Shown in pieces: positions 1-18,235 of a DNA stretch of 39,414 nucleotides. The position numbers and the translations under genes were made by a program. The stretch lies in contig JALQVI010000009.1 of the NCBI GenBank assembly GCA_023260395.1, positions 1-39,414 on the forward strand, read 5' to 3'. The notes beneath the pieces are model-generated. The model did no database searches. It saw only the letters and a list, made by a program, of their open reading frames with translations, and was not told where the DNA came from. The first letter of the stretch is position 1; every line of letters starts with the position of its first letter. The DNA comes from Candidatus Nanopelagicales bacterium (GTDB lineage Bacteria > Actinomycetota > Actinomycetes > S36-B12 > UBA5976).

Positions 1-291
1 AGCAAAAAGTGCAAAGACTGTTGTGAGTAAGAAACCGGAGGCAAAAAACATCATCACGACCGTGAAGTTCATGGCACCTGATGTGGCGAGATCAATGAGG
101 TTAAGTCCACTTTGCGGCGAACCGCCAATGACTGAAGTTGAACCTTGGCCAGACGGCCCAAATTTCAATGCCAGAACCACAATGAGTGGGAGTAACAGCA
201 TGAGTAAGAAGGCTGTCGCAGTGCGACGACGGCGTAATTGTCGAACGAACTCTACGCGAAACGGCAAGGTCTTCGATGCTTCATAACTCAT
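1..291 (-). CDS. ABC transporter permease, N-terminal part (truncated by window edge)
   Basis: Minus-strand reading from ATG at 291: MSYEASKTLPFRVEFVRQLRRRRTATAFLLMLLLPLIVVLALKFGPSG..., one TM then a second hydrophobic stretch; start overlaps the stop of the upstream ABC ATPase gene (ATGA). Confidence 0.75.
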   Translation of the reverse strand, partial: MSYEASKTLPFRVEFVRQLRRRRTATAFLLMLLLPLIVVLALKFGPSGQGSTSVIGGSPQSGLNLIDLATSGAMNFTVVMMFFASGFLLTTVFALFA

Positions 292-2759
292 GATGATTTT
301 CCAATGGTGAGATCTTCGCCAACGACTTCGATGAAGAAGTCTTCAAGTTTGGTATTTGAAGTAAGCAAGTCTGAAACTTCACCAGCAGTCACCAACGCGC
401 CACGATGCATCACGACTACATATGAACATGTCTGTTCCACTTCGCTAAGCATGTGTGAAGAGATGATTACGGTTTTGCCGGTGGCAACGTAGTCATGCAG
501 GACATCCCGCATTTCCTTAATCTGCTGTGGATCAAGCCCGTTTGTTGGTTCATCGAGAATCAGCAAGTCAGGTTGGCCAAGCATTGCTTGAGCGATGCCT
601 AAGCGCTGGCGCATACCTTGACTGTAAGTACGAACTTTGCGATCGATAGCAGTTCCTAGGTCTGCAATCTTGAGCACGTCTTCGAAGTTTGCTGGTTCGG
701 TTCGACCTGCAGCTCGCCAATACAGATCCAGATTCTCTCGACCAGTCAGATGTGGCAGGAATCCTGAGCCTTCAACAAGCGAACCAATTCGAGACAATAC
801 TTTCGCGCCTGGTTGAACCTTTTGGCCAAAGACAAAAACATCACCGTTGGTTGGTTTAATCAAGCCCATCACCATACGCATGGTTGTGGTTTTGCCAGCT
901 CCGTTTGGCCCGAGAAGTCCAACTACCTTTCCCTGCGGGATTGAATAAGAAATGTCATTCACGGCAAGTGGGCCGTTTTTGAATTGCTTAACCAAGTGCT
1001 CGATTGTCACCGGCACGTCGGCAAGTTCAGGTCGAGAGTCATTCTCTAAGGATCGCTTACGAGTTGCGAATAAGACTGCTGCCGCAATTAGTAGCGCACC
1101 CAAAATCACCCACAAATAGATCCACAATGAAGCGCTGGGATTAAGTGGCTGCAGCTCGAGGTTGGTGAGACCTAACGATGGCTGTGCGAGTGAGACCTTA
1201 ATCATGGCAGGGTTAATCGGCAGACGGTATGCCATGTCTGTCGTACTGACAACAACCTGCAAGTGGTCGCCAGGCTTAATCTTCGCGGCAATTGCTGGCA
1301 AATTGATTTCGATGTGGGTCGGCGTTTGCGAAACCTTGGAAAGTTCCACCGGCGCGACTAAACCATTTGGTAACTGGGCGACACCAGAAGCTGAAACGAT
1401 TTGCAGACTGGCAAACAAAGCGACGTCGGTCAAACTTTGCTCTTGGCTCGAAACTAAAAGGGAGACTCGGCTGCTGCCGATAATTTCTTGACTCTTAGTG
1501 AATGGCTGGGTGTTGAATGTCGCAGACTGACCGGGTATTTGGTGGGAGAGGAATCCACCTGCATTTCCAATTCCTGGAAAGGTCGAGATGTTGGCTGGCA
1601 CACCACCTGCTGGAGCCAATATTTCTTGCGGTCCACCTATGAGTGGGACTTCACGCAGATTTTGGTCAAGCGGTGTGTAGGTCGAAGATACCGAAACGCT
1701 CGGTACCGCTTGCTCGCGTTCCGAACCAGTGATGTTTTGCGCGGCGAAAGTTACTTCAAAATCAGTATTGAGTTTCTTGGTTTTCTTCAGATAAGTGTCG
1801 AACCATTCACGTGTTAAAGAGTTGAGTCGAGTCGTTTCAGGTGTGCCGCCATCATGTCCACCGCTGTGCCAAATCATTTTCACAGGCGTTGCAGGATGGC
1901 CAGCCTTGATCTGTTGATACGTTGCGTCTGCTTGCGAAATCGGAAAGAGCGAATCTGCTTGTCCGGCCATCAGCAACGTTGGCGCCGTGATTTTTTGAGC
2001 GACTGACATTGGTGATGAGTTCTGCAAAAGCTTTGCTTGTTCCGCCGAATAAGTTCCGGTGGTAGCAACGTGTTCATAAAGTTTGCACCATTGAACGGCA
2101 AAGCGGCCGCAAAGAGTGGTGGATTGATCTTGATTGAGTTGTCCGCGACTAAAGAACAGTCCAGTCCAGAGCTGTTTATATACTCCGGGTGTTTTGCCGC
2201 CAACAATAGATTGTGGAAAGAGCGCAGTTTCGAGATTGTTCCATGTGATGTCTGAACTTACGGCATCGACTCGATGATCAGAACCGGCAACCATAAGGCT
2301 CAGTGCGCCACCATATGAGGCGCCAGCAAACCCAACGACTGGATCGTTCGCAGAATCCAATTTCACTTCCGGACGAGTGCTTAAGTAATCAATGATCTTG
2401 CTGGCATCTGCTACTTCAAACTGAGTTGAGTTCATGGAGATAGATCCCGAACTCTTTCCAAATCCTCGAGCCGAGTAGGCCAACACGACGTAGCCAGCAT
2501 CTTGTAATTGGATAGCTTGCGCTGCAACGGATGCCTTACTGCCCCCAAATCCATGAGCAAGTACAACGGCTGGGGCTGGTGTTGCTTTAGGCAGATAGAG
2601 ATCAGCATCCAAGACGACTGGTGTTGAGTCAGTCGCTGACGTTGCTGCACCAGTAATCGAGATAACTTCGCTACTTGATTGTGCCAAGGCCGGCAGTACC
2701 GCATTGGCACTGAACAACATGCTGATGGTTACAACCATGGCTGATAGCCGGAATCTCAT
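288..2759 (-). CDS. Fusion protein: secreted alpha/beta hydrolase (X-Pro dipeptidyl-peptidase/CocE-like) - TM helix - ABC transporter ATP-binding domain
   Basis: Signal peptide MRFRLSAMVVTISMLFSANAVLPALAQ; nucleophile elbow GFAGASYGG; TM LWIYLWVILGALLIAAAVLFATRKR; Walker A GPNGAGKT, signature YSQGMRQRLGIAQ, Walker B LLILDEPTNGLDP. Confidence 0.9.
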   Translation of the reverse strand: MRFRLSAMVVTISMLFSANAVLPALAQSSSEVISITGAATSATDSTPVVLDADLYLPKATPAPAVVLAHGFGGSKASVAAQAIQLQDAGYVVLAYSARGFGKSSGSISMNSTQFEVADASKIIDYLSTRPEVKLDSANDPVVGFAGASYGGALSLMVAGSDHRVDAVSSDITWNNLETALFPQSIVGGKTPGVYKQLWTGLFFSRGQLNQDQSTTLCGRFAVQWCKLYEHVATTGTYSAEQAKLLQNSSPMSVAQKITAPTLLMAGQADSLFPISQADATYQQIKAGHPATPVKMIWHSGGHDGGTPETTRLNSLTREWFDTYLKKTKKLNTDFEVTFAAQNITGSEREQAVPSVSVSSTYTPLDQNLREVPLIGGPQEILAPAGGVPANISTFPGIGNAGGFLSHQIPGQSATFNTQPFTKSQEIIGSSRVSLLVSSQEQSLTDVALFASLQIVSASGVAQLPNGLVAPVELSKVSQTPTHIEINLPAIAAKIKPGDHLQVVVSTTDMAYRLPINPAMIKVSLAQPSLGLTNLELQPLNPSASLWIYLWVILGALLIAAAVLFATRKRSLENDSRPELADVPVTIEHLVKQFKNGPLAVNDISYSIPQGKVVGLLGPNGAGKTTTMRMVMGLIKPTNGDVFVFGQKVQPGAKVLSRIGSLVEGSGFLPHLTGRENLDLYWRAAGRTEPANFEDVLKIADLGTAIDRKVRTYSQGMRQRLGIAQAMLGQPDLLILDEPTNGLDPQQIKEMRDVLHDYVATGKTVIISSHMLSEVEQTCSYVVVMHRGALVTAGEVSDLLTSNTKLEDFFIEVVGEDLTIGKSS

Positions 2760-2859
2760 TACTTAAACCTATGCCAGTTCTGGCCATATGACTCATTGAA
2801 GAAAGTGGGCCGGTATGAATGCCATCGAACAGCGTCTCATTTCAATTGGCGAACCGCTC

Positions 2860-3019
2860 GTTCGACTTGATATCGCGAAACGATTCAATTAGCGGCGGTT
2901 CTGGATGAAATGTTAGCCGAACCTATAAAAGCGAAATAGGCGATCATTGTGTCGCCTATGAGCGTGTTCGGCGGTATTTGCATCCAGTGACCGTCGCGAC
3001 TCGTGGGTTTGGGTCGAAC
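2860..3019 (+). ncRNA. Candidate structured RNA: long rod-like imperfect hairpin of unknown class
   Basis: Helices read by eye: 2892-2900/2989-2997, 2901-2907/2981-2987, 2908-2911/2976-2979, 2916-2922/2966-2972, 2936-2943/2952-2959 (35 bp), plus outer 2860-2868/3011-3019. Wobbles are G-U on the + strand (A-C on the minus strand). Confidence 0.55.
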
Positions 3020-3041
3020 CGCTCGCTAGCGAAAGGACTCT

Positions 3042-3074
3042 GACAACTCCCAAGGCGGGACTTGTAGAGTTGTT
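3042..3074 (+). other. Hairpin upstream of PLP decarboxylase
   Basis: ACAACTC (3043-3049) pairs GAGTTGT (3067-3073), G-U at 3042/3074; inner CAAG (3051-3054)/CTTG (3061-3064). Confidence 0.5.
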
Positions 3075-3135
3075 CTTGGTGATAGTGACCCTGCTGGCTG
3101 GAATCGAGTCGGCGGCCTGACACCTAGTGTGAAGA

Positions 3136-4497
3136 GTGAATCTGATGGCAAAGATGCATGAGCATGATGCAGCGCTAACCGATTTGGTATTCGATTACAT
3201 GCGCGAACGCCTGGCAATGCCAGAAGTGCCGTTGGATTTCCCTGGCACCTCACACGAAGTTCTTAGTGCACTTGACGGCCTGTTTACTGCCGAAGGCCGT
3301 CCGGCAAATCAAGTGATGGATTTGTACGACAACGTCATTTCTCGCACGGTGATTTCGGCAGATAGTCCAAAGTTTTTAGCATTCATTCCTGCGGCTCCTA
3401 CTAAGGCCGCATTGTTATTCGACATGGTTGTGTCGTGTGCGAGTTTGCAGGCAATCTCGTGGCTCGAAGCATCAGGTGCGGTTGCCGCTGAAAACCAAGT
3501 GCTGCGTTGGATGGCCGATCTGGTTGGTTTGCCTGAGGGTGCAGGTGGAACATTCGTATCTGGTGGATCGGCTGCGAACCTTGCTGCGTTGACCGTTGCT
3601 CGCGACATGGGTCGCAAGAAACTTGGCGGCAAAGTCCCAGTGCGCATTGCCATCAGCGAGCAAGCGCATTCGTCGAACCGTAACTCGCTATCGATTCTTG
3701 ATGTGGAACCGTTAGTTGTGCCATGCGAGAACTTCCGCATGACGGGTGAAGATTTAGCTCGCGCGTTGGCTAATGACACGAGTGATGTTCCAGTCGTTGG
3801 TGTGGTTGGTACTGCGGGCACGACAAATGCCGGCATCGTCGACGACCTTGCTGGCATAGGAGCAATCGCGCGTGAACGGGGCATGTGGTTCCACGTGGAT
3901 GCCGCCTATGGTGGCGCTGCCTTGTTAGCCCCGAGCGTGCGCGAAGTATTTAACGGTGTTGAGCTTGCCGATTCGATCACGATGGATCCACACAAGTGGT
4001 GGTTCTCGCCGTTTGATGTTGCAGCCATTATTTATCGCAATCCGGCATTGGCGAAAGAAGTCCACACGCAAAAAGCTTCCTATCTCGATGTGCTGCACGA
4101 AGATGGCGATACCGATTGGAATCCAACGGACTATGCATATCACTTGACTCGTCGTGCACGTGGTTTGCCGTTGTGGTTCTCGGTTGCTGTGAACGGTACC
4201 GATGCTTACCGTGATGCCGTTGAGTCGTCGCTATCACTGACTCGTGAAGTTGCCGATTACATTCGCGCACATGATTCATTCGAACTTGTGCAAGAGCCGA
4301 CCTTGTCCGTAGTTCTGTGGCGTCACAAGGACTGGACTGCGGCTGACTATGCCCGCATGCAAAACACCCTGCTCGATCAACAGATTGGGTTTGTGACACC
4401 GACCGTTTGGCAAGGCGAAACAGTAGGCCGCTTTGCCTTTATCCATCCACACACGACTTTGGACATGGTTGTCCATATGTTTGAAGCAATTGCCTAG
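3136..4497 (+). CDS. Pyridoxal-dependent decarboxylase (aromatic-L-amino-acid decarboxylase/group II family)
   Basis: HVDAAYGGAALL and SITMDPHKWWFSPFDVAAI (PLP-lysine motif); start GTG 3136 or ATG 3145. Confidence 0.9.
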   Translation: MNLMAKMHEHDAALTDLVFDYMRERLAMPEVPLDFPGTSHEVLSALDGLFTAEGRPANQVMDLYDNVISRTVISADSPKFLAFIPAAPTKAALLFDMVVSCASLQAISWLEASGAVAAENQVLRWMADLVGLPEGAGGTFVSGGSAANLAALTVARDMGRKKLGGKVPVRIAISEQAHSSNRNSLSILDVEPLVVPCENFRMTGEDLARALANDTSDVPVVGVVGTAGTTNAGIVDDLAGIGAIARERGMWFHVDAAYGGAALLAPSVREVFNGVELADSITMDPHKWWFSPFDVAAIIYRNPALAKEVHTQKASYLDVLHEDGDTDWNPTDYAYHLTRRARGLPLWFSVAVNGTDAYRDAVESSLSLTREVADYIRAHDSFELVQEPTLSVVLWRHKDWTAADYARMQNTLLDQQIGFVTPTVWQGETVGRFAFIHPHTTLDMVVHMFEAIA

Positions 4498-17975: not shown

Positions 17976-18235
17976 TGGCGCCCACCTGGGTCCGTGATTG
18001 CGGAGCAGACCAGTTCTTCGAAGTTGGTCTGTTTCAAGCCGATGCCAGTCGCAGGCAAAGCGGTCCACGTAAGACGAGTCAATCGTTGAGCACGGTGCGG
18101 TTTAGAAGTAAGCCCTGCCTCGCCGGTAATCCAGATGATTATCTCAAGCGGGAGAAGGTCATTAGTGGCAAAAAGCTGCGAGGACTTCAGCAGGCGGATG
18201 TGGGGTCGAAGATCAGGTCGGCCAGGTGGGCGTCA
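17976..18235 (+). ncRNA. Large structured RNA, probable raiA-type RNA upstream of hpf
   Basis: Closing helix TGGCGCCCACCTGG (17976-17989) with CCAGGTGGGCGTCA (18222-18235), 14 bp with one G-U; internal hairpin CAGACCA (18006-18012)/TGGTCTG (18025-18031), smaller stems AGAT/ATCT near 18133-18144 and CTGC/GCAG near 18176-18193. Sits between comF and hpf, with no credible ORF. Confidence 0.72.

Follow-up and report, generated by a model that had tools for sequence, protein, structure and literature searches.

A dispersed family of intergenic hairpin elements in Nanopelagicales with a conserved fold, strand asymmetry and inversion in place

The intergenic hairpin elements of about 110 nt found in the Nanopelagicales are an undescribed family, with divergent members in a second genus and a second family. 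The family is dispersed, insertion-polymorphic, structure-conserved and strand-asymmetric, and its members invert in place. We regard the element as non-autonomous, its active form being most likely the folded single + strand of DNA (probability about 0.5), and we infer that this folded strand is recognised as DNA and mobilised in trans. The copy described in detail lies in the window, the whole 39,414-nt stretch of DNA that was analysed from a freshwater Candidatus Nanopelagicales bacterium, in the intergenic region between the gene at 288..2759 (-) and that at 3136..4497 (+).

RNA folding of positions 2860-3019 gave a single rod of -73.9 kcal/mol on the + strand, compared with a mean of -46.4 (sd 3.9) in dinucleotide shuffles (z = -7.07, 0/200 shuffles), and a weaker fold on the - strand (-55.6 kcal/mol, z = -5.27). 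With DNA parameters, the z-scores of 2884-3003 were -5.3 (+) and -4.8 (-). The long rod drawn by the first-pass annotation is far beyond chance, and its helices were recovered where it had placed them (2892-2911/2976-2997, 2916-2922/2966-2972, and an apical stem near 2936-2944/2951-2959). Its observation that all wobbles are G-U on the + strand was also borne out, the fold of the window copy having four G-U pairs on that strand and none on the reverse strand. The outer stem that it added (2860-2868/3011-3019) does pair; it is seen at the window locus only, and none of the other copies has it. The parts of the element and its neighbours are as follows.

2884..2993 (+): hairpin element, shared unit; 98% identity (108/110) to G000:C159:6479-6588(-)
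2892..2911 (+): outer arm on the left, containing GGATG-AAAT; its complement is 2976-2997, and beyond GGATG it is specific to the locus
2912..2915 (+): left part of a conserved internal loop; GTTA here, UUA, UGA or AAA in other copies
2916..2922 (+): 7-bp conserved stem, 5' side, GCCGAAC (from fold and covariation)
2923..2930 (+): purine-rich asymmetric loop, conserved; CTATAAAA here, VUCUAAARA in other copies, those of G029 and family f25 included
2931..2963 (+): apical hairpin, its stem covarying and its loop A/T-rich; 10/12 pairs of helix 2 show two-sided changes
2966..2972 (+): 3' half of the conserved 7-bp stem, GTTCGGC (from fold and covariation)
2973..2997 (+): right side, with GG loop, ATTT, extra-helical G at 2980, CATCC and right outer arm
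2860..2868 (+): outermost arm, pairing with 3011-3019; confined to the window locus
2850..2860 (+): CGAACCGCTCG, left copy of an 11-bp flanking direct repeat, possible target duplication
3015..3025 (+): CGAACCGCTCG, right copy of the 11-bp flanking direct repeat
3136..4497 (+): PLP-dependent decarboxylase (PF00282), 3' of the element; adjoins methylmalonyl-CoA mutase (MCM) in many relatives
288..2759 (-): X-Pro peptidase/hydrolase fused to an ABC ATPase, in a segment absent between MCM and decarboxylase in relatives

The 11-bp direct repeat around the window copy, matched in 0/200 shuffles, is possibly a target duplication. Flanking direct repeats were notable in only 2 of 26 copies, with lengths of 11 and 8 bp, and these are the two copies that are 98% identical.

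Three DNA matches were found in the genome of the window, namely the window copy itself, a 98% copy (108/110 nt) on contig C159 and a 79% copy on C191, and the structure search returned four; the two 98%-identical copies occupy different loci. Covariance models were built from 11 copies (R1) and 23 copies (R2). R1 gave 21 matches in 7 of the 23 genomes of the genus, with 1-6 per genome; two G016 matches lie at contig ends, have identical sequence and are maybe one copy, for a genus total of 20-21. Searched over 168 genomes of the order, R2 added to the genus copies only three, all in G029, which represents another genus of the same family. In 396 sampled genomes of the class, R2 produced single matches in G252, G274 and G376, which belong to one distant actinobacterial family (f25) and have genomes of 4.7-7 Mb. 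This family holds four copies in all, including an inverted pair in G376, and no further copies were found in about 218 kb of G376 sequence. A second subtype carries GCAGAAC/GTTCTGC as its 7-bp stem. Weak DNA matches in G019 and G036 were set aside, being only 26-53 nt long with E above 1e-4. Inverted pairs with short spacers, some palindromic, occur in independent lineages (L014 10988-11334, L013 920-1255, L022, and L294 1501-1741), an arrangement that resembles BIME/REPIN.

Read from the outside inward, an outer stem that varies between copies is followed by a short conserved stem bearing a single extra-helical base. Next come an internal loop, with UUA, UGA or AAA on one side and G or GG on the other, and the 7-bp stem GCCGAAC/GTTCGGC. 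Further in lie the asymmetric loop, VUCUAAARA facing G(U), and a covarying apical stem of 10-13 bp with an A/T-rich loop. The loops are retained in G029 and the distant family, with nearly all stem letters changed. Across 23 copies, the pairing proposed for the window copy is kept in relatives, with two-sided changes at 24 of the 32 pairs. Paired cells amounted to 95.5% versus 73.2% in shuffles, two-sided changes to 155 versus 41.9, and the covariation score to 0.568 versus 0.158 in shuffles (0/500) and at most 0.110 in slid controls; the model alignment is biased towards its own structure, and the size of these gaps and the outer-arm test are independent of that bias. In the latter test, the outer arms were unique to each locus yet complementary (summed score 357, permutation maximum 276, 0/20,000). 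No conserved flanking sequence was present outside the arms in the aligned copies. The retention of shape while the sequence changes suggests that a protein recognises the folded strand.

At the model pairs, 36 cells were G-U and 4 were A-C wobbles, and the + strand folded better in 22/22 copies. Because of this G-U excess and the better folding, we consider the + strand to be the structured one; the outer arms, scored without strand bias, showed a weaker preference (49 to 29). Relative to the neighbouring genes, about 11 copies run in the same direction and about 9 in the opposite one. Most copies sit between genes that run in the same direction, close to the end of the upstream one, and those of f25 lie between convergent genes. 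Compared with relatives, orthologous copies at three loci are inverted in place. At AcnX-swivel-rbpA and at sseB-infC, the G022 and G002 elements can be aligned only after reverse complementation, and the adjoining non-coding flank aligns in direct orientation; for ribH-hisE, alignment of the G000 block of two elements with that of G022 scored 214 reversed and 45 direct.

The comparison of orthologous sites also revealed empty ones. The ribH-hisE gap measures ~21-41 nt in relatives with both flanks fully aligned, and 336-347 nt in three species, G000, G002 and G022, where it contains two elements. Insertion into a pre-existing palindrome was rejected as the source of the locus-specific arms, since the empty ribH-hisE sites are so short; the arms therefore arrived with the insertion. 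Between metK and priA, many relatives have just the metK terminator, and the element is present in G001, G013, G014 and G016; G013 and G014 have kept the terminator upstream of it.

Wobble intermediates are expected in the evolution of a helix that is under selection as RNA. Among orthologous copies at fixed loci, 45 cells had changed on both sides and were still paired, 11 had changed on one side and 26 were broken. At 20 locus-by-pair sites with two Watson-Crick types, a G-T intermediate occurred in no sampled copy, and about half of the changes were transversions. This pattern suits templated correction of a DNA hairpin, saturation being another possible cause. Correction alone would erase the asymmetric loops, yet these are conserved, which indicates that the loops are recognised by something.

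We searched for known RNAs, enzymes and vectors that could account for the element. It had no Rfam match at the gathering score or at permissive thresholds, and the first-pass annotation had likewise recognised no diagnostic sequence. For 6S, no match was obtained at the gathering score or up to E = 10 over 2780-3140, and the Ms1 covariance model gave none; for lack of covariance-model matches, 6S and other Rfam RNAs were discarded. Near the window copy there was no sigma-70-type promoter-like site and no terminator-like site on the + strand; on the - strand a U-rich tract comes after the apical stem, and the window has one terminator-like match on that strand. The multiple copies, their occurrence in either orientation and the missing promoter-like site speak against a single-copy 6S gene with its own promoter, and the comparison made at first with a dedicated 6S-type RNA is not supported. 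The only Rfam match in the window was raiA RNA (RF03072) at 17981-18230 (+), with 147 bits, far above the gathering score.

The attC R-box pair RYYYAAC/GTTRRRY was found in 0/23 copies on both strands, and no integron integrase exceeded the TIGR02249 cut-off in 44 genomes, several of which are incomplete drafts; an integron attC was rejected on these grounds. Tyrosine recombinases below the cut-off, typically two genes per genome, also occurred in 14/14 control genomes, which suggests that they are ordinary Xer-type genes. A Y1 HUH transposase was detected in 0/44 genomes, with five control genomes positive, and neither a GTAG foot nor any other conserved tetranucleotide was seen in the aligned flanks; a REP/IS200 origin was rejected for want of the transposase. 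The element matched no plasmid and the window element no phage; one f25 copy had a weak 45-nt match within the tail gene of a Mycobacterium phage. A loose pattern run on IMG/VR yielded at least 120 chance matches, none confirmed by covariance model among the 80 loci listed, and two strict patterns gave none. Phage or plasmid origin was dismissed on the basis of these plasmid, phage and IMG/VR results.

The element shares features with several known systems. ERIC is a sequence-conserved family. In size, imperfect palindromy, intergenic location and presence or absence at orthologous sites, the element is like ERIC/IRU (127 bp, enterobacteria); it differs in having free helix sequence and conserved loops. 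It is similar to 6S/Ms1 RNA in overall length and rod shape, but is multicopy, occurs in either orientation and lacks a covariance-model match. A MITE remnant, the alternative raised in the first-pass annotation, comes closer than a 6S-type RNA, given the multiple copies and the empty sites in relatives, and like a MITE the element is non-coding and insertion-polymorphic. It nevertheless does not look like a plain MITE: no fixed terminal repeat is apparent, the helices show covariation rather than decay, and the loops are preserved even in another genus and another family. The outer arms differ per locus, and direct repeats, of 11 and 8 bp, flank 2 of 26 copies.

YPAL/RU-2 of Yersinia is a 168-bp non-coding intergenic palindrome that inserts near dyad symmetry, with target duplications varying from 3 to 26 bp (PMC2229807); the 11- and 8-bp repeats of the present element could likewise be target duplications of variable size. 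YPAL belongs to a different phylum and has no known sequence relation to the element, and covarying helices around conserved internal loops are not described for it in the available part of the source (PMC2229807). REP/BIME sequences served by TnpA-REP are intergenic palindromes, single or in inverted pairs and in either orientation, of which one strand is recognised as a folded hairpin with a required bulge (PMC8266576). REPs are 20-50 nt long with a GTAG foot and hundreds of copies (PMC8266576), whereas the element is ~110 nt long with 1-6 copies and no conserved GTAG foot. In attC sites, there is little sequence conservation, the single-strand hairpin structure is conserved and only one strand is used; they have extra-helical bases, an unpaired spacer and a variable terminal stem (PMC2727003). 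By analogy only, the element has in common with attC a strand-specific hairpin with extra-helical bases; it differs in its long extra outer stem and in lacking a cassette array, R-boxes and an integrase over the cut-off. The best reading by analogy is that the element may act like REP, YPAL or attC hairpins, without being a member of any of these groups; it fails the defining tests of REP and attC.

If the folded + strand of DNA is the active form, it would become single during replication, repair or cruciform extrusion, and a candidate protein might then recognise the unpaired bases of the hairpin and cut or rejoin it. Such processing could occasionally copy the element to a new intergenic site or flip it, and hairpin-templated repair would keep the two arms complementary. 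This reading is supported by the dispersed and polymorphic copies, the empty sites, one recent duplication and the inversion in place, as well as by the conserved loops and extra-helical base within helices of free sequence and the strand-biased wobbles. Against it, no mobilising enzyme was found (no Y1 in 44 genomes, only sub-cut-off recombinases), direct repeats of differing length occur in 2/26 copies, the copy number is low (1-6), conserved loops and covariation are also a hallmark of structured RNA, and passive inversion is possible between short inverted repeats. The broader proposal of a class of structure-recognised, strand-specific DNA recombination hairpins in Actinomycetia, which would follow attC logic with another enzyme, invert and act as an integration point for foreign DNA, seems doubtful.

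The main rival, possible though on the unlikely side, is a multicopy family of structured non-coding RNAs with their own nearby promoters, in which the rod would bind a protein via its internal loops. Covarying helices with conserved loops, the + strand wobble bias with better + folding in every copy compared, and a very stable RNA fold are all consistent with it. It is difficult to reconcile with the absence of promoter-like and + terminator-like sites around the window copy, the unconserved flanks outside the arms, the lack of an Rfam match and the spacers of inverted pairs, which at roughly 20-40 nt leave little room for promoters; the in-place inversions and the few G-T intermediates between orthologous copies also argue against it. 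We judge it unlikely that the element is an ERIC/BIME-like hairpin in read-through mRNA that stabilises, cleaves or terminates the message of a neighbouring gene, even though copies lie mostly near the end of an upstream codirectional gene or, in f25, between convergent genes, and on the - strand there are a U-rich tract after the apical stem and, in the window, one terminator-like match. ERIC in Yersinia affects upstream transcripts in an orientation-dependent manner (PMC2229807), but the orientation of the present element is about even and flips at orthologous loci. Moreover, the U-tract is interrupted in f25 and G029, and the metK gene of G013 and G014 is already provided with a terminator that precedes the element.

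Two further explanations are improbable. One is a passive or fossil palindrome: an old insertion of no recognised function that has stayed self-complementary and that flips solely through template switching in replication. It would agree with the two-sided changes with few G-T intermediates and with in-place inversions between arms; correction would, however, erase asymmetric loops that are conserved across genera and in another family, and a near-identical duplicate is present at a second locus. The other is a site-specific recombination site at the MCM-decarboxylase element, at which foreign DNA would have integrated, leaving a direct copy on either side. Many relatives have MCM and the PLP decarboxylase next to each other, and one element lies between them in G022 and G002. 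In the window genome the two genes are found on different contigs, and next to each lies one of the 98%-identical elements, both in the same orientation; one element has a surface-protein gene (RCC1 repeats) as its neighbour and the other the hydrolase-ABC gene. This looks like DNA inserted between direct element copies, though on two contigs that are not joined. The elements at MCM-decarboxylase in G002 and G022 are of another subtype and in opposite orientation, and the lack of attC R-boxes and of an integron integrase above the cut-off also counts against such a site.

Small, compact genomes of free-living bacteria are expected to shed dispersed repeats, yet this hairpin family persists between housekeeping genes. 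Covariation of helices is usually read as proof of an RNA; in this family it is found together with in-place inversion and an orientation independent of the genes, both of which point to DNA. Should a protein recognise the folded strand, Actinomycetia would have a new hairpin-processing enzyme still to be discovered; should none do so, the family warns those who search for RNA motifs that hairpin-templated DNA repair can mimic covariation.

Additional observations concern the surroundings of the window copy. The hydrolase-ABC fusion (288-2759, -) is unusual, with DNA similarity within the genus only in G007. Window positions 2-99 are 86% identical to G000:C159:34-131 (-); the window side adjoins the hydrolase-ABC gene and the other is the far end of the contig with the other element copy, as if a single inserted segment had a related gene at each end. 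At ~3085-3130, before the start of the PLP decarboxylase gene, a non-coding block (CCCTGCTGGCT...GAGTCGGCGG...ACCTAG) is conserved in the MCM-decarboxylase spacer of the genus with or without the hairpin, and is a possible promoter or leader element.
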